A stretch of 64,000 nucleotides of DNA from Embleya scabrispora DSM 41855 (GTDB lineage: Bacteria; Actinomycetota; Actinomycetes; Streptomycetales; Streptomycetaceae): positions 124,001 through 188,000 of the forward strand of contig NZ_KB889741.1 in the NCBI RefSeq assembly GCF_000372745.1. The letters are read 5' to 3'. The notes under the pieces are model-generated. The model was given only the letters and a program-made list of their open reading frames with translations. It had not been told where the DNA came from and searched no databases. Shown in pieces: positions 57,252 to 63,580 of this stretch. Position numbers and translations under genes: made by a program. The number at the start of each line of letters is the position of its first letter. The first letter of the stretch is position 1.

Positions 57252-57801
57252 AAACCTGCCGCCGATCCGGGACGCGCGGCCGGAACTCGCCGCACGAGGT
57301 CTGTCCGGTCACACGGGAGTGCGCTTCCAGCCAACCGGAGGGTACGGGAACTCCCATACCCCTGCGTGCAGTTGATCTACCAGTAGCGGCCGGGGCGGCG
57401 GCCGGCGACGGGGGACGAGAGGGCAAACATGGACGCGATCGCGGTGCTCGACCAGCTCACTGCTCCGCAGACTCGGGCGAATCCCTTCCCGCTGTACGAA
57501 CAGGCCCGTGAACTCGGCCCCGTACTGCCGGTGACCGACACGCTCGTGCTGGTCACCGGCTACGCGGCGGCCGATCGGGTGTTGCGTGACCGCGAGTTCG
57601 GCGTGCTGGACCGCGAGGCCAGTGCGGCGGTACTGGGCGACGAGCCGCGCCCCCGGTCGTGGGAACTATTCGGCCGGTCGATCCTGATGAACAATCCACC
57701 ATTGTTTCCTGTCGGCACCTCTGACCTGCGCAAACGCCGCGACCTCGACGAACACGAACCGTCTCGGCCCGTTTCAGCCCGACACTACCCGGATCGTCAC
57801 G

Positions 57802-57829
57802 CGGCCGTGCACCCATGGGTGCACGGCCG
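57802..57829. terminator. 28-bp perfect palindrome
   Basis: A perfect palindrome whose left half is CGGCCGTGCACCCA, centred between 57815 and 57816 on CATG. It sits ~100 bp inside the putative foreign segment. It could be a cruciform or hairpin terminator, or a protein-binding site of a mobile element. Confidence 0.55.
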
Positions 57830-57848
57830 GGCGCACCCCGAAAACACG

Positions 57849-57886
57849 GCAGGGGTTCGGCGCCGAATACGACGCCGAACCCCTGC
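57849..57886 (-). terminator. Stem-loop with 14-bp perfect arms
   Basis: GCAGGGGTTCGGCG (57849-57862) pairs perfectly with CGCCGAACCCCTGC (57873-57886) across a 10-nt loop. It lies downstream of the leftward operon ending at 58074 and is its probable terminator. No second tRNA-like arm is present. Confidence 0.7.
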
Positions 57887-58073
57887 TCAACGGGCCGCCG
57901 GCTTGGCGGAGCACGGCCACCCGCCGGCCACCAATCCACCCGAGGGAGGGCGACCCGACGCGCCCCGGCCGATGGCCGAAACACGTCCGTCCTACTAACG
58001 AACCAGCCCCAGCGACCGTTACCCCCGTTGCCGTGAGGGCCAAAACTGCTGCGCCTTCAACACGGTCAGGCCG

Positions 58074-58409
58074 CTACCCGTTCTCTGCGGACGGAGACAG
58101 GACACGATCCACGAGGTCTTGAAGCCGCGCGTCGAACTCCTTCTCACCGTCAGGGCCGAGTGTCGCCAGTGCGACGAGCGCCGTTACCGCGACGTCCACC
58201 AGCTCCTTCCGCACGTCATCCCACGAGTGCGACGCACCTTTCCGGGGGTTTGCGGCGAGAGCCCCGTGCAGTGCCTCCGCGACCTCGCCGTACTCCTCGC
58301 CGACCTTGAGCACGCGCAGCAACGTGCGTTCCCGTTCGGTCTGCTCGCCGGCGTTCTCGTCCAACCAGCGGCGGAGCCGGTTGATCTGTTCCCAGGTGTT
58401 CTCGTCCAT
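58074..58409 (-). CDS. MazG-like nucleotide pyrophosphohydrolase, 111 aa
   Basis: All-alpha NTP pyrophosphatase of the MazG-like type: LKVGEEYGEVAEALHGAL holds the metal-binding EExxE, and WDDVRKELVDVAVTALVALATLG the second acidic motif (ExxD). A single short domain, so it acts as a dimer or tetramer. ATG 58409 follows GGGAGAAG. It starts 26 nt after the kinase/phosphatase gene and is the last gene of the operon. It would hydrolyse (d)NTPs, possibly a modified one made by its neighbours (inference). Confidence 0.88.
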   Translation of the reverse strand: MDENTWEQINRLRRWLDENAGEQTERERTLLRVLKVGEEYGEVAEALHGALAANPRKGASHSWDDVRKELVDVAVTALVALATLGPDGEKEFDARLQDLVDRVLSPSAENG

Positions 58410-58435
58410 CCACTTCTCCCACGGTCGTACGGGTG

Positions 58436-59463
58436 TCAGAACAGGGCGGCCACGGGCTCCTCAGCCTGCGTGGGGTCGGTTACCGGCAGCGGCACCGAAG
58501 CGGGGACGGCGAGCCGCACCGTGAGCGCCGAGTGGTCGGTCAGCCGGTCCGGGCCGGTGCGGGGCTCGTGGACGTACGAGCAGCCGAGGAGCGTGCCGCC
58601 CAGGCTGGCCGAGACGTGCGCGTGGTCGTAGCGGTATCCGTCACCGGTCTTCCCGACCCACGAATACTCGCGCGCGTCCGCATGCAGCGTCCGGAACGCG
58701 TCCGCGTACCCGGCTCGGCCGAACGCCCCGTAGAAGTCGTACTCGAACGGGGCGAAGAATCGGTAGCGCGGCGAGTGATCAGGCTCCAGGACGTTGAGGT
58801 CTCCGAGCACGACCCGGGCGCCGGTCCGGCCGTCGGGAAGCGCCGCAGCGCACTCCCTCAGCCACCGCCACGGGCCCCTGACGGCCGCGACCACGGCACT
58901 GGCGACGGCGGCCGGGCCTTCGTCGCTCGCGTCGAGTCGGAGGACGCGGACGCCGGCGGCCATGAGGAACGTAGCGGCCTCGCGGAACGCCGCGCATTCC
59001 CGCGCGGTGCTGCCGGGGTCGCGCTCGTACCGGCTGTGGGCGCCACGGTTGGTCAGCCGCGCCTTGATCACGTCGGTGCGGGCGTTGAGGATCACGGCGA
59101 CGTCGGGCAAGTCGGCGTGCCGGTTCAGCTCCCACACCACATCGAGGTCCACGCCGTCCAAGACCTGGAGCACCAGCGACGAGGCAACGTACCGGTCACA
59201 CACGACCGTCTCGCCGCGCGCGAGCGCCGGCCGGATCTCCTCGTTCAGGTGCGCGTACCTGTCCGCCGCGATCAGGCACGCCATTGCCATACCCCGGTAC
59301 GTGTCGGTGCCGTTCCGCGCGAGCAGCCCCACCGGGTATCGCTCGGCTCCCGGGTCTGGCACACCGCGACGCCGATCGTCCGCAACTCCAGCGCGACGGC
59401 CGCCGTGGCCGTGGACTTCCCGATACCGCCCGGCCCGTCGATCGTGACGAACACCCCGCTCAC
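58436..59463 (-). pseudogene. tmk-like: Thymidylate-kinase-like domain fused to an EEP phosphatase/nuclease tail, with one apparent base missing
   Basis: GTG 59463 opens FVTIDGPGGIGKSTATAAVALELR, a P-loop dTMP kinase start, up to TREPSDT. The frame then slips near 59331-59338 (a C missing in ACCCGG) and goes on with VGLLARNGTDTYRGMAMACLIAADRYAHLNEEIRPALARGETVVCDRYVASSLVLQVLDG and the lid region LTNRGAHSRYERD. After ~205 residues the same open frame continues into the C-terminal half of an endonuclease/exonuclease/phosphatase domain (VVLGDLNVLEPDHSP, DGYRYDHAHVS, LTDHSALTVRL). The EEP N-terminal half is absent. Its start overlaps the radical SAM stop by 4 nt. If the slip is an assembly error, this is an intact fusion enzyme. 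Confidence 0.75.
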
Positions 59464-60571
59464 GACGCACCGACCACGGGCAGCATGCGCGACTGCCCCG
59501 GGACCACTGGGCACTGCTCCGTGTCGACGGCGCCGATACGCTCCCCGGCGGCAACGACCGCGGCCGGGCAGCCCTTCCCGCACGCGGCCGACATCGAGCA
59601 GCCGCCGCACGTCGGATTCGCCCCGAGATCCCACCGGTCGCTGAACTTCCCGTAGGCGTCGAGCCGTTCGGCGACGTCGTCGTATTCCCAGACGTTGCCG
59701 ACGAGGAAATCCGTGTCCGGGTGTTGGCTCACCCGCGTCCGCGCGGCGAAAACCAAGTAGGGGCAGATCGCCACGCACCGTCGGTGAACACGTAGATGAT
59801 CGTTCCGGCCTCGCAGCCCGCCAGCGGCTTCGAGTCGTTCGGGAAGCGGATGAGCGTGAGGTCCAAGTCGTCATCGGCGAACGGGAGCGCCAGGTCCCGG
59901 ATGTGCCGCATGTGGTCGTCCGGCCGGCGGAGCCGCTGGGAGCCGCGGGACGCCCCGCGCCCCATCGGCCCGAGCGGATTCATCAGCACGTACCGCGCGC
60001 CCTGCTCCTTCGCGAACGTGCAGAGCTGCCCGTACTCCTCGTCCTGGGCCAGGTTGTTCGGCGTGCACAACAGCCCTTGCAGGATGCCCGCCTCCCCGAA
60101 CGCCCTGACGGTGTCGACGGTTTCCTGGAAGCCCTCGGGCCGGCCCCGGAACACGCCGTGTGACTCGGGCGAGAACCCGTCGAGGCTCACGTTCATGTGC
60201 ACGCCCAGCTCGGCGAGACGGGCGACCTGCTCTGCCGTGACCATCGTCGCGTTCGTGCACACACCGACACCCATCCCGGCCGCGCGGAACGCCTCCGTGA
60301 TTCGGATCAGGTCCGCGTGCATGAACGGCTCACCGCCGGTCAACGTCCCGCGGTTCACGCGTGCCGCTGCGAGCTGCGGGATGAGCCGGCCGCGAACTGC
60401 GTCCAGCGGCATGTACGCGCCGCGCTTCGTCGCGGAGACGAAGCAGTGCTTGCACGTCTCGTTGCACGGCTCGCAGACCTGGATGAGAGCCTTGCGGTAC
60501 GGGTGGTCAACCGTCGTTCGGAAGTAGCAACTTGCTGCTTGGTCCCCGGTGCTGATCGGACGTGCGGTCAC
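59460..60571 (-). pseudogene. Radical SAM protein with SPASM-type C-terminus, one apparent base missing
   Basis: The cluster-binding motif CNETCKHC (CxxxCxxC) is near residues 33-40 of GTG 60571, followed by RGTLTGGEPFMHADLIRITEAF (GGE motif), VCTNATMVT, MNVSLDG and the rest of a radical SAM barrel to GTIIYVFTDG. The frame slips at about 59770-59785, and the next frame continues AICPYLVFAART... CGGCSMSAACGKGCPAAV, a SPASM/twitch cysteine cluster that binds an auxiliary Fe-S cluster. Gene length is one base short of a multiple of three. SPASM enzymes modify peptides, proteins or sugars; partner candidates are the two small upstream genes. GTG 60583 is an alternative start. Confidence 0.8.
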
Positions 60572-60656
60572 GTGCACCCCCACGATGAGATGGAATGGGC
60601 CCGCTCCCCGGCCGGGCGCACGACAGCACGGCCGGGGGCGGGAGTTCGATGGGCAA

Positions 60657-61070
60657 TCAGGAGACGAGCCGAGCCGGCTCGATGACTTCGACGTTGATGC
60701 TCGTCGACTCGGCGATTCGCCAACCGGTGTCGATCAGGAACTGCCGGTAGTCCGTGTACCAGTCGTGGACCTGAGCCGGAGTACCGACCAGCCGGCGCGC
60801 CCCGATGTCGTCCACGTCGAGGCCGGCCGGCAGCACCTTGAACCAGACCGGCCCCGACCCGCTCGACGGGAACTCCCTGAGGACCGTGACCTTCGCCCCG
60901 TCCGGGTTGTCGAGGGCGTCGTACAGGTCCCCACGGTCGGGGTGTTCGTACACCTCTGTCAGGTACGAGTCGTGAGGCTCACGCGGCAGATACCACCCAG
61001 CGCCCGCCTTCTCGATCGCATCGTCCAGGCGCCGCAACTTCTCCGGGTCGACGTCTCTCCGGTCCCTCAC
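60657..61070 (-). CDS. Unknown protein, 137 aa, second gene of the radical SAM operon
   Basis: Acidic soluble protein with RRLDDAIEKAGAGWYLPREPHDSYLTEVYEHPDRGDLYDALDNPDGAKVTVLREFP at its front and TPAQVHDWYTDYRQFLIDTGWRIAESTSINVEVIEPARLVS at its end. GTG 61070 overlaps the upstream stop by 4 bases (GTGA), which fixes the start. No domain recognised. Its position just before the radical SAM gene makes it a possible substrate, chaperone or partner (inference). Confidence 0.75.
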   Translation of the reverse strand: MRDRRDVDPEKLRRLDDAIEKAGAGWYLPREPHDSYLTEVYEHPDRGDLYDALDNPDGAKVTVLREFPSSGSGPVWFKVLPAGLDVDDIGARRLVGTPAQVHDWYTDYRQFLIDTGWRIAESTSINVEVIEPARLVS

Positions 61071-61369
61071 GACCCACCACCCCGGGGCATGTCCGCGAAC
61101 CGCAAGGGGAGGTCGGGGCCGTCGTCGACGATCCTCAGCGCGTGCTCCACCCCGTGCCGCACACGCCACCGCTCCGCCAAGGCCGGATCGACCATGTGCG
61201 CGTACTCCTGCCGCCCGGCGCACCCCGTGCACCCGGGCAACACCCGGCCCACGGTCCCGTGGACCTCGATGTGGTGCGTCACCAGATCGTGCAGAGCCAT
61301 CGACCGGCCCCGCCGCCCTCGGCTCGCCAGATCCGCGCACGTCTCGCACCCGGACATCAACTCGACCAT
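61067..61369 (-). CDS. Small CxxC-containing protein, first gene of the radical SAM operon, 100 aa
   Basis: Starts MVELMSGCETCADLASRGRRGR and later has LPGCTGCAGRQEYAHMVDPALAERWR. The two CxxC pairs plus DLVTHHIEVHG suggest a small zinc-binding or Fe-S protein. ATG 61369 is preferred because GGAGG lies 5 nt upstream; ATG 61381 is the alternative. Its stop overlaps the next start. No known family; possible substrate or zinc-ribbon adaptor of the operon. Confidence 0.72.
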   Translation of the reverse strand: MVELMSGCETCADLASRGRRGRSMALHDLVTHHIEVHGTVGRVLPGCTGCAGRQEYAHMVDPALAERWRVRHGVEHALRIVDDGPDLPLRFADMPRGGGS

Positions 61370-61709: not shown

Positions 61710-63014
61710 GTGCCGGAGCTGACCCCCTTCGAGGTCGCCTGTCTCGCGCACGGCTGGGACAAGCCGGCGGACTTTTTACGGGCCTTCCACGCTGCGGCCG
61801 ACGTGCTCGGCGAAGCGGTCACACTGACCGACCGCCAGTACCGCCGGTGGCGTCAACCCGACCCACCTGCACCCCGGGCGCGCGCCTGGAAGACCCTCCA
61901 CGCCATGTTCGCCGTCTGCCCGAGTGAGATTGGGTTCCCCGGACCGCCACCGGGTGCCACCGTGGGGAGTGCACCACTCCCCACACGGAAGGGCACCGGC
62001 GTGGATCGACGGGCTTTCCTGTCCGACTCCATCGGCGCAGCCGCCGCTGTTGGCTTGCCCGCCCAAGCTCTCTCACGGAGCCCAGCCGGAGGCACCGGCG
62101 CCATCGGCACCACACATCTCCTGGAGCTCAGGGCTGGTCTTCACGTCCTCTTCCAGCTCGACGCGGCGTACGGGGGCAGGGACGTTCGATCTTTGGCCGT
62201 CCGCCACCTGAGCCGAGTCCGCCGCATCATCAACACCGGCAAGTACCCGGACACGATCGGCCGTCAGCTTCGGCTCCTCTCGGGGGAGATCGCCGAACAC
62301 TGCGGCTGGCTGTACTACGACGCCGACAACCAAGAGAACGCGAAACGCTATTGGGGCGAGGCCCTGACGACGGCGACCATGCTCCGCGACACCAACCTCG
62401 AAATCCTGGTCTTCTCCTCCATGAGCCTCCAGGCATGCCACGAGGGCCGGCCCCGCGACGGCCTCGACCTGGCCCGCGCTGCCCAGGACCGTGCGACCCG
62501 CCTCGGGTCGCCGATCCTCCAGTCCCTCATTGCCGCCCGGGAAGCACGCGCCCTGTCGCTGTTGGCCGACGACACATCCGCTCGACGCCGAATGAGCGAG
62601 GCGATGCGGCTCGTCGACCGCAACAGGCGCGGGCGCCCCTCGCCCGAGTGGGCGGCCTTCCACGGGCATGCCGAACTGGACTACGCGCAGGGACTCCTCT
62701 ACACCGAACTCGGCCACCACCAAGCGGCGACCGGGTTCCTCCGCGCCGCGCTTGCCCACCAGGAGGCCAACTACGGACGCAACCGGGCCCTGTACCGCCT
62801 CACTCTGGCCCGGGGCCTGATCGGCGCCGGGGAAGTGGACGAAGGCGCCGCCCAAGCCGTGGGAAGCCTGGGCGATTTGGAAGAGGTCGAGTCGGGCCGC
62901 GTCAAACGACGCCTCACCGAGGTGGTCGGCGCGCTACGCGCCGTCGACGCCGTCTCCGCCCGGGAAGCCGCCGAGGAACTGGCCGAATACGTGGAAACGA
63001 AGGGGGCAGCGTGA
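61710..63014 (+). CDS. HTH/TPR-type regulator, 434 aa
   Basis: The first ~75 residues resemble the XRE-like entry of streptomycete TPR regulators (FLRAFHAAADVLGEAVTLTDRQYRRWRQPDPPAPRARAWKTLHAMFAV). A hydrophobic RRAFLSDSIGAAAAVGLPAQAL follows, then about eight helical TPR-like repeats (for example LLSGEIAEHCGWLYYDADNQENAKRYWGEALTTATML, DYAQGLLYTELGHHQAATGFLRAALAHQEANYG). GTG 61710 has GGAGG 7 nt upstream. Divergent from the radical SAM operon, so probably its regulator. Its stop shares a base with the GNAT start. Confidence 0.85.
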   Translation: MPELTPFEVACLAHGWDKPADFLRAFHAAADVLGEAVTLTDRQYRRWRQPDPPAPRARAWKTLHAMFAVCPSEIGFPGPPPGATVGSAPLPTRKGTGVDRRAFLSDSIGAAAAVGLPAQALSRSPAGGTGAIGTTHLLELRAGLHVLFQLDAAYGGRDVRSLAVRHLSRVRRIINTGKYPDTIGRQLRLLSGEIAEHCGWLYYDADNQENAKRYWGEALTTATMLRDTNLEILVFSSMSLQACHEGRPRDGLDLARAAQDRATRLGSPILQSLIAAREARALSLLADDTSARRRMSEAMRLVDRNRRGRPSPEWAAFHGHAELDYAQGLLYTELGHHQAATGFLRAALAHQEANYGRNRALYRLTLARGLIGAGEVDEGAAQAVGSLGDLEEVESGRVKRRLTEVVGALRAVDAVSAREAAEELAEYVETKGAA

Positions 63015-63580
63015 TGTCCGAGGTGGCCTACGGGCGATACGAGGGCCGAGAGGCCGCAGGACAACTCGACACCTTCCTACCGGCCTACGAGGAGGTCTAC
63101 GCCGAACCCCCGTACTGCGAAGGCCCCAGCGACGTGGCCCAGTTCATCGACCACTACCTGCTCCACACGCAGCGGCCGGGGATGCGGCTGGTCATCGCCC
63201 GCGACGGCGACGAGGTCATCGGTTTCACCTATGGATACTTCCTTCCTCGCAATACCGGATGGTGGACCAACGTCGAGCAGGTCCTTGCGGAGGACTTCAC
63301 GCGCGAGGACGGCAACCGCACGTGGGTGATCCTCGAACTTGCGGTCCGTGAAGCGTGGCGCCGACGCGGTATCGCCGCCGCTCTCCACGCCGCGCTACTC
63401 GATGGCCTGCACGTCGAGCGGGTGACACTCACCGTCCGCCCGGAACCGGAGGCGGCCCCGGCGCAGTCCGCGTACGCGTCGTGGGGTTACCGCACCGTCG
63501 GCCTGTCGCAGCCCTGGGACGGCGCGCCGGTCTACAGCGCCATGGTCCTCGAACTCGGCGGGCAGCCCGCCCAAGCCTGA
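63014..63580 (+). CDS. GNAT-family N-acetyltransferase, 188 aa
   Basis: Acetyl-CoA-dependent acetyltransferase: LVIARDGDEVIGFTYGYFLP (beta strands), WVILELAVREAWRRRGIAAALHAALLDGL (motif A, R-R-G-I-A for pyrophosphate binding) and SAYASWGYRTVGL (motif B). ATG 63014 overlaps the regulator stop (TGATG), giving tight coupling. Substrate unknown; the coupling suggests a shared role with the regulator and the nearby operon. Confidence 0.9.
   Translation: MSEVAYGRYEGREAAGQLDTFLPAYEEVYAEPPYCEGPSDVAQFIDHYLLHTQRPGMRLVIARDGDEVIGFTYGYFLPRNTGWWTNVEQVLAEDFTREDGNRTWVILELAVREAWRRRGIAAALHAALLDGLHVERVTLTVRPEPEAAPAQSAYASWGYRTVGLSQPWDGAPVYSAMVLELGGQPAQA

Follow-up and report, generated by a model that had tools for sequence, protein, structure and literature searches.

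The stretch analysed in this work (the window) is 64,000 nucleotides (nt) of Embleya scabrispora DSM 41855, contig NZ_KB889741.1, and it carries at 58074-61369 of the minus strand a locus built around a gene for a radical S-adenosylmethionine (SAM) enzyme. The finding extends past the window, as this relic-like local copy belongs to a conserved, mobile and modular gene set. The locus appears to be a decayed version of a mobile cassette with four genes, encoding a radical SAM enzyme with a SPASM domain, a diverged thymidylate-kinase-like kinase, an ExoIII/APE1-like protein of the endonuclease/exonuclease/phosphatase (EEP) family, and an enzyme cleaving (deoxy)nucleoside triphosphates, (d)NTPs. 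We propose that the cassette makes a modified nucleotide and protects its host from it, with use against phages as the likeliest purpose, and assign this reading a probability of about 0.5; its core taken alone, that is, the modified nucleotide together with self-protection, appears fairly probable. The cassette genes of the window are listed below, with collected loci designated by L numbers.

58074..58409, minus strand: MazG-like protein of 111 amino acids (aa) in an open frame, a proposed (d)NTP pyrophosphohydrolase; 62% identical to its MazG-like counterpart in L011, an intact cassette
58436..58867, minus strand: C-terminal half of the EEP (ExoIII/APE1-like) gene; tblastn with the L019 EEP matches residues 128-270 only
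58868..59332, minus strand: main part of the thymidylate-kinase-like gene; residues 45-199 of the L019 kinase, 72% identity (tblastn)
59326..59463, minus strand: N-terminal part of the kinase gene with the P-loop DGPGGIGKST, in a different frame; residues 1-46 of the L019 kinase, 67% identity (tblastn)
59460..59774, minus strand: SPASM-encoding tail of the radical SAM gene, read in a second frame; residues 266-368 of the L019 protein, 73% identity (tblastn)
59759..60571, minus strand: radical SAM core with CxxxCxxC, translation start at 60571; 77% identity to L019

Gene identity, order, linkage, exchange of slots, residue changes and damage, as reported here, come from comparison of loci. Fifty-four clade loci of the radical SAM gene were studied, 52 from genome records and two from viral contigs. 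The clade is sharply bounded, with at least 44% identity for its members versus at most 36% for the next matches (fragment L067 aside), among the best 80 of 456 relatives kept from the profile search, so that it is possibly undercounted. In the tree, the window row and 53 clade loci fall on one side of a branch, versus 11 outgroup rows on the other (SH-aLRT 99); 11 of 28 outgroup loci were used, L061 was left out, and a long-branch warning applies. Kinase profile matches are present in 50 of the 54 clade loci and EEP matches in 51, while neither is found in 27 outgroup loci (50/55 and 51/55 versus 0/27, if the clade fragment L067 is counted). In 47 loci, each of the three core genes forms one uninterrupted frame covering 85% or more of its profile, the seven exceptions being L045, L055, L060, L061, L063, L064 and L095, the last of which ends at a contig end. 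The usual gene order is radical SAM, kinase, EEP, with overlaps of mostly 4-10 nt; in L051 the kinase gene is located upstream instead.

Most clade members come from Actinomycetota, and others from Candidatus Ryanbacteria, a metagenome-assembled genome (MAG) of Patescibacteria (candidate phyla radiation, CPR), Bipolaricaulota, Aureispira (Bacteroidota) and one archaeal contig of Methanoregula. The non-actinobacterial members are mostly MAG contigs, with binning errors possible, and an intact cassette probably occurs in an archaeon. The cassette is rare and patchy, being found in 5 of 200 genomes drawn from the family and 3 of 396 drawn from the phylum (own genome counted in both); scores in the whole-genome searches cover the top candidates from a first look. 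As the gene set recurs across phyla, it is more than a chance association, and by sequence comparison the cassette is real and conserved. The co-occurrence of radical SAM, kinase and (d)NTP-cleaving enzyme, which the first-pass annotation had read from the window, is thus found elsewhere, and the EEP gene is a near-constant partner too. No published description of this gene combination was found in the open-access literature, judged by titles and the beginnings of abstracts; a similar set is thmABC (PMC12691670).

In an alignment of 16 radical SAM proteins, CxxxCxxC and all seven SPASM cysteines are invariant, and the three cysteine patterns are kept in 53, 51 and 50 of the 54 loci, respectively. 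The cassette enzymes thus have both CxxxCxxC and the seven-cysteine pattern that we take to define SPASM radical SAM proteins (C-x11-G-x4-C / CX2CX5CX3C / C). Three intact members score far below the cut-offs of all 25 best NCBIfam models listed (of 69-72 families). This includes maturases of ribosomally synthesized peptides (StsB, AlbA, PapB, SkfB and similar), with 101.9 bits at best versus 625 for StsB, and BlsE (TIGR04466), with 57-79 bits versus 400; in the tree, 17 cassette rows stand apart from the MftC and BlsE rows (SH-aLRT 90). Profile matches to PDB are led by SkfB (2.3e-25), followed by BlsE (2.8e-21), with the first viperin at 1.5e-9. Viperin membership was considered and rejected: L016, L032 and L051 score 54.7, 54.0 and 58.7 bits against the viperin model NF038283 (cut-off 180), and the seven-cysteine SPASM motif also separates the two, as the first-pass annotation had anticipated in calling the system distinct from viperin. 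A BlsE-type radical SAM gene with a full score (640 bits, cut-off 400) is present in the same genome as the window, on contig C147 (L147).

Intact cassette kinases match the dTMP kinase model TIGR00041 above its cut-off of 83.25 (109.2 bits in L019, 98.0 in L032). Two positions of the active site, whose roles in base stacking and as the 2'-OH gate we take from Tmk of M. tuberculosis, are replaced. At the former, Phe or Tyr is found in 26 of 30 housekeeping Tmk (one gap), versus no aromatic residue in 51 cassette kinases, all of which have Ile, Cys, Val or Ala; at the latter, Tyr in 28 of 30 (two gaps) corresponds to Leu in 50 of 51 (one gap). As both the stacking aromatic residue and the gate Tyr are replaced, the substrate of the cassette kinase is probably something other than plain dTMP. 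The EEP proteins are closest to ExoIII/APE1 (PDB profile match to 5ewt, 2.4e-21), and N9, E37, Y110, D149, N151, D207, D237 and H238, presumably with metal-binding and catalytic roles, are invariant in all 17 aligned proteins; scores against the xth model were 54.5 and 77.2 bits, below the cut-off of 99.05.

The fourth position of the cassette is variable. Counted up to 4.5 kb from the radical SAM gene, 21 loci have MazG and another 21 match the NUDIX profile, and no locus has both; this exclusivity refers to the two cassette profiles only, and a second NUDIX-like cluster is present in the MazG loci L027 and L031. Of the 129 neighbour proteins in the Streptomyces set, two match the general Pfam NUDIX model. 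CYTH proteins occur in five loci (L051, L055, L056, L057, L063), in L051 together with NUDIX. Signature motifs are retained in 21/21 and 20/21 MazG proteins, in 21/21 NUDIX boxes and in 5/5 CYTH proteins. As three unrelated folds that split triphosphates occupy one role, this exchange, which we rate as the strongest clue, hints at a nucleoside triphosphate as the key molecule.

The kinase and EEP families exceed the radical SAM clade, each occurring in 17 of 200 Streptomycetaceae genomes (at 1e-35 for the kinase and 1e-30 for EEP, own genome included). Among 16 further kinase loci (L156-L171), ten combine an AlkA-family glycosylase, an AprD4-like radical SAM protein and the kinase with MazG (eight loci) or NUDIX (two loci). 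In L163 and L165 the kinase is accompanied by a DEDD (DnaQ-type) exonuclease and another CxxxCxxC radical SAM protein, and no pool-cleaning enzyme was recognised there; in total, the exonuclease accompanies the kinase in three loci, with this third radical SAM type in two of them. L164, L168, L170 and L171 are partial kinase loci. Assignment to sister types is based on PDB matches from single members or a profile (AprD4, 4.5e-9; ExoX, 2.9e-14; glycosylases in 8/8 matches, best 1.2e-5); the third radical SAM type had no PDB match, and we label it SPL-like by assumption. Among the 17 kinases of the sister set, 12 have Leu or Val as the gate residue; in the other five, the pattern did not locate this position.

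Every type thus has a DNA-acting enzyme beside a radical SAM protein, to which the main types add a pool-cleaning enzyme and a kinase of one shared family, a combination that would fit the needs of self-protection against an altered nucleotide. The nucleotide theme suggested in the first-pass annotation is hence supported from two sides, by the exchange of MazG, NUDIX and CYTH in one slot and by the other DNA-repair enzymes of the sister systems. Two more arrangements were observed. Loci L173-L180 hold EEP, a protein of 711-739 aa from the AprD4-like cluster, and aldo/keto reductase-like and nucleotidyltransferase-like proteins (the last two read from sequence). In L190:6304-7903, a glycosylase fragment precedes a radical SAM-like protein of another kind (371 aa), with no kinase, possibly a further sister type.

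Several loci are associated with mobile elements. In S. plumbidurans the cassette lies between an integrase/excisionase-like gene and phage-like lysis and tail genes, and in S. fildesensis integrase and replication genes are found nearby (names read from sequence in both cases); among the 129 neighbour proteins in the Streptomyces set, three match Phage_integrase. In Streptomyces sp. NBC_00690, a linear plasmid of 336 kb carries a copy annotated as radical SAM, dTMP kinase, endonuclease/exonuclease/phosphatase and MazG-like. Five viral loci have the glycosylase; L187 and L188 are identical in DNA, leaving four distinct loci, and in three of the four (L186-L189, with the identical pair counted once) the glycosylase, radical SAM, kinase and NUDIX genes lie between endolysin/holin-like and integrase-like genes of prophage-like contigs.

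Known defence genes, checked protein by protein, are located near 6 of the 54 loci. These are Lamassu (L031), IetS (L050), a type IIG restriction enzyme (L054), ThsB TIR (L058), Cas3 (L033) and a type I methylase (L065); PADLOC covered 100/117, 129/150 and 82/135 listed neighbour proteins. Additional PADLOC matches outside this count are mad8 (L056) and HEC-05 (L054), as well as PDC-S02, GajB, RT, Cas1, HamC and others not assigned to a locus; some matches, e.g., of the UvrD type, may be housekeeping genes. Phage defence, raised as a possibility in the first-pass annotation, is made plausible by carriage on prophage-like and integrative elements and on a plasmid and by the defence genes near 6/54 loci, a count with no background rate attached; antiphage use of the cassette is proposed as likely.

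The frames of the window agree with the first-pass annotation in layout and depart from it in interpretation. The five leftward frames within 58074-61369, the 4-nt overlaps at 61067-61070 and 59460-59463, the gaps of 26 nt (58410-58435) and 85 nt (60572-60656, next to the radical SAM start at 60571), and the divergent tetratricopeptide repeat (TPR) regulator (61710-63014) and GNAT gene (63011-63580) are all present. Family labels hold directly for the kinase (Thymidylate_kin, 67.8 bits) and the radical SAM core (Radical_SAM, 74.4 bits, 1.5e-20), both over the Pfam cut-offs. Those of MazG (15.7 bits, cut-off 22), the SPASM tail fragment alone (TIGR04085, 23.3 bits, cut-off 27) and the EEP tail (ExoIII-like model, 21.4 bits, cut-off 182.55) are below cut-off in the window and are upheld by intact relatives, including the annotated plasmid copy. 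The top Pfam match of the MazG-like protein, Phage_CP76 at 18.8 bits, is likewise below cut-off.

The radical SAM gene of the window is not one open frame, having a frameshift at approximately 59759-59774, and the kinase gene has another at approximately 59326-59332 (tblastn with intact homologues). At the junction 58868/58867, the C-end of the kinase passes directly, in frame, into EEP residue 128; residues 1-127 are missing, and with them the invariant positions N9, E37 and Y110 (L016 numbering). A syntenic locus of Embleya sp. NBC_00888 (NZ_CP108785.1, L134), with 83-88% identity over the aligned pieces, has four separate genes encoding radical SAM (374 aa), kinase (204 aa), EEP (279 aa) and MazG (111 aa) proteins, and its radical SAM protein has all radical SAM and SPASM cysteine patterns. 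As about 404 bp are present in L134 at the place of the junction, and the kinase and EEP genes are separate, the fusion in the window is a deletion scar. A true kinase/EEP fusion, as proposed in the first-pass annotation, was therefore rejected. The dN/dS values against L134, 0.09 to 0.44 over seven rows, were not used as evidence.

The window copy is very probably a mere relic without function, whatever the family does, which is compatible with the proposed function, as it concerns this copy only. Two frameshifts and the loss of half of the EEP gene speak for a relic. Both frameshifts are possibly sequencing errors, the deletion less easily so. Against a relic, the frames of MazG, regulator and GNAT are open and similar to the Embleya copy, with residues 1-60 of the MazG-like protein matching it.

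Further features lie upstream of the cassette genes:

60657..61070, minus strand: 137-aa protein, lineage-specific, outside the conserved cassette; no Pfam/NCBIfam match
61067..61369, minus strand: 100-aa open reading frame (ORF) with CxxC; no family match (Pfam/NCBIfam)
61710..63014, plus strand: NsdA-family TPR regulator; NF053720, 289 bits, above the cut-off of 75
63011..63580, plus strand: GNAT acetyltransferase, paired with the regulator; Acetyltransf_1, 4.5e-9, 37 bits (cut-off 20.7)

The 137-aa protein was found in one of 200 genomes, that of the window itself, and a homologue with 82% identity lies upstream of the L134 radical SAM gene. The CxxC ORF gave no significant tblastn match in the collected loci or L134, whole genomes being outside this search, and is perhaps no gene of the system; the stretch holding it is absent from L134, and, conversely, 2.2 kb of upstream genes of L134 are absent from the window. 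Both were rejected as cassette members, as they are not conserved, and the five-gene system of the first-pass annotation is reduced accordingly. DNA resembling the NsdA-type regulator and GNAT stretch is found cassette-free in other Streptomyces plasmids (H18-H25), which weakens the case for this pair as a part of the system. On the other side, just past the cassette, 57429-57998 resembles the start of a cytochrome-P450-like gene with similarity soon lost (read from sequence), and looks like an island edge or a decayed gene.

Several unusual copies were seen elsewhere. Genome G065 (L012, L013, L185) has the locus in two inverted copies, in one of which the radical SAM gene is split, with a 44-aa C-terminal piece beside the kinase gene, about 10 kb from the remainder. 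In L063:3235-7427 IS21-type-transposon-like genes interrupt the radical SAM gene (read from sequence). L064:5421-11024 has, around one radical SAM copy, two EEP genes, a gene for a zeta-toxin-like kinase (Pfam, 1.6e-25) and an XRE/ImmA-IrrE-like regulator, similar to ones in L059 and L103 (read from sequence). L172 of genome G090 contains the cassette-type EEP and MazG genes with no radical SAM or kinase gene between them and the upstream genes, and is probably another decayed copy.

Taken together, these comparisons lead us to infer an altered nucleotide, its toxicity, self-protection of the host and antiphage use, as follows. The radical SAM enzyme would alter a nucleotide or nucleoside, and the kinase would bring this product, or a precursor of it, nearer to the triphosphate form. 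Synthesis of DNA (or RNA) would then be poisoned by the altered nucleotide, most usefully in an infecting phage. Self-protection would be twofold: MazG, NUDIX or CYTH may remove the altered triphosphate from the pool, and EEP may excise the altered residue from the ends of the host's own DNA.

A number of observations weigh against this proposal. The best PDB match of the radical SAM protein is a peptide maturase, SkfB, and SPASM enzymes mostly act on peptides. The third CxxxCxxC cysteine is replaced by Tyr in the copy on the Streptomyces sp. NBC_00690 plasmid (L133:9001-10110), whose other three cassette genes are open. L055 has EEP and CYTH with no kinase nearby, and L060 is without any partner. 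The three exonuclease-type kinases have Tyr at the base position, and their type is the one with no recognised pool-cleaning enzyme. Eight EEP loci (L173-L180) lie beside a radical SAM protein of the AprD4-like cluster and are without the cassette kinase. Finally, the 6/54 loci near known defence genes are a raw count.

The best-surviving rival explanation, which we nevertheless consider unlikely, is a nucleoside antibiotic cluster, that is, the same chemistry with the product exported against competitors, as with thmABC in Photorhabdus. The latter is the closest published gene logic found, and its triphosphatase serves for self-resistance (PMC12691670). The loci are mostly from Actinomycetota, too. 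This phylum is rich in antibiotic producers. However, no constant transporter or tailoring neighbour was seen, the top transporter-like cluster (ABC ATPase) being found in six loci; the clade is also present in CPR contigs and an archaeal contig, and the cassette or a sister type occurs in a prophage cargo position.

Replacement or hypermodification appears still less likely: here, the modified nucleotide would enter the carrier's own DNA, MazG or NUDIX would remove the ordinary nucleotide, and the nuclease or glycosylase would attack unmarked DNA. The gene set does resemble that of T4-like phages, which have a nucleotide kinase, a (d)NTP pyrophosphatase and a DNA-acting enzyme, and the DNA-acting partners are interchangeable. 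However, the 30 most frequent neighbour clusters include no recognisable polymerase or base-modifying synthase, and repair enzymes of three unrelated folds would suit lesion removal better than restriction.

A LysR-like gene is located near the cassette in 19 loci, mostly from Pseudonocardiales, as a rule in divergent orientation, and in 18 regulator-radical SAM intergenic regions (e.g., L032:8767-9001) the DNA is partly conserved. An exact palindrome, ATGTCC-N4-GGACAT, is present in three of the 18 (L032, L035, L037). Inspection of these 18 regions by eye revealed no common ORF, and five of them have no ORF of at least 20 aa, so that the modified-peptide option of the first-pass annotation receives little support, as far as this region is concerned. 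Modification of a peptide or protein, with the SPASM enzyme maturing a peptide and the nucleotide enzymes conjugating or activating it, is improbable: peptide maturases are among the best and second-best models (StsB, 91-102 bits) and lead the PDB matches, a small CxxC/CxxC protein (ZnR10) lies near 11/54 loci, and short frames shared by close relatives between regulator and radical SAM gene make a short peptide possible, but ZnR10 was not found near the other 43 loci, and each of the 25 best models listed has a cut-off far above the score obtained.

Returning to the modified-nucleotide proposal, a wider formulation, which we advance tentatively and at somewhat less than even odds, is that of an undescribed modular class of immune systems, borne by mobile elements and built around one diverged kinase and at least three kinds of radical SAM enzymes (SPASM, AprD4-like, and a third, perhaps SPL-like), with the window copy as a decayed member. 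Self-immunity would come from the repair enzyme (EEP, AlkA-like glycosylase or DnaQ-like exonuclease), joined in the SPASM and AprD4-like types by the pool cleaner. If true, this would be a family of compact factories of unusual nucleotides with antidotes encoded alongside, extending the viperin concept to further kinds of radical SAM chemistry and predicting new nucleotide analogues with matched resistance and repair enzymes. Given the swaps of repair enzymes and triphosphatases around one kinase family, each repair enzyme should point to the lesion made by its radical SAM partner.

The radical SAM, kinase and EEP components each resemble known proteins and differ from them. The radical SAM core is shared with StsB, SkfB, mycofactocin MftC, BlsE and NirJ, several of which have a SPASM tail, while the cassette enzymes are far below the listed cut-offs. 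The kinases match the Tmk model, yet both the base-stacking aromatic residue and the 2'-OH gate Tyr are replaced. The EEP protein shares active-site positions and a structure-profile match with exodeoxyribonuclease III/APE1, but remains below the xth cut-off and stands beside a radical SAM gene in 51/54 loci. Among published systems, a thymidylate synthase and a 5-hydroxymethyluracil kinase were validated in a set with a predicted MazG, and a dNMP kinase appears in a figure legend (PMC13092281), where the term "radical SAM" occurs 0 times in the main text. For the viperin product, a nuclease that removes it from RNA has also been reported (PMC9415739).

Prokaryotic viperins (pVip) are alike in the radical SAM core, in a kinase associated or fused in a part of the family (by PADLOC names), and in the proposed logic of an altered nucleotide; in contrast, the cassette has a seven-cysteine SPASM tail, scores far short of the viperin cut-off, and has an ExoIII-like EEP and a (d)NTP-cleaving enzyme in addition. 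The thmABC set, reported in Gammaproteobacteria (Photorhabdus), makes 4'-thiothymidine with a radical SAM enzyme, a kinase and a triphosphatase, and the triphosphatase ThmC alone confers resistance, pool clearing being shown only as resistance in E. coli (PMC12691670). The cassette likewise unites a radical SAM enzyme, a kinase and a triphosphate-cleaving enzyme in one cluster; this is a likeness in the makeup of compact gene sets, and in thmABC the kinase is an AbmG homologue and no EEP is described (PMC12691670). As the triphosphatase of thmABC gives resistance, experiments on another gene set provide a precedent for the proposed division of labour, and by analogy viperin and thmABC would be the closest functional precedents of the cassette.

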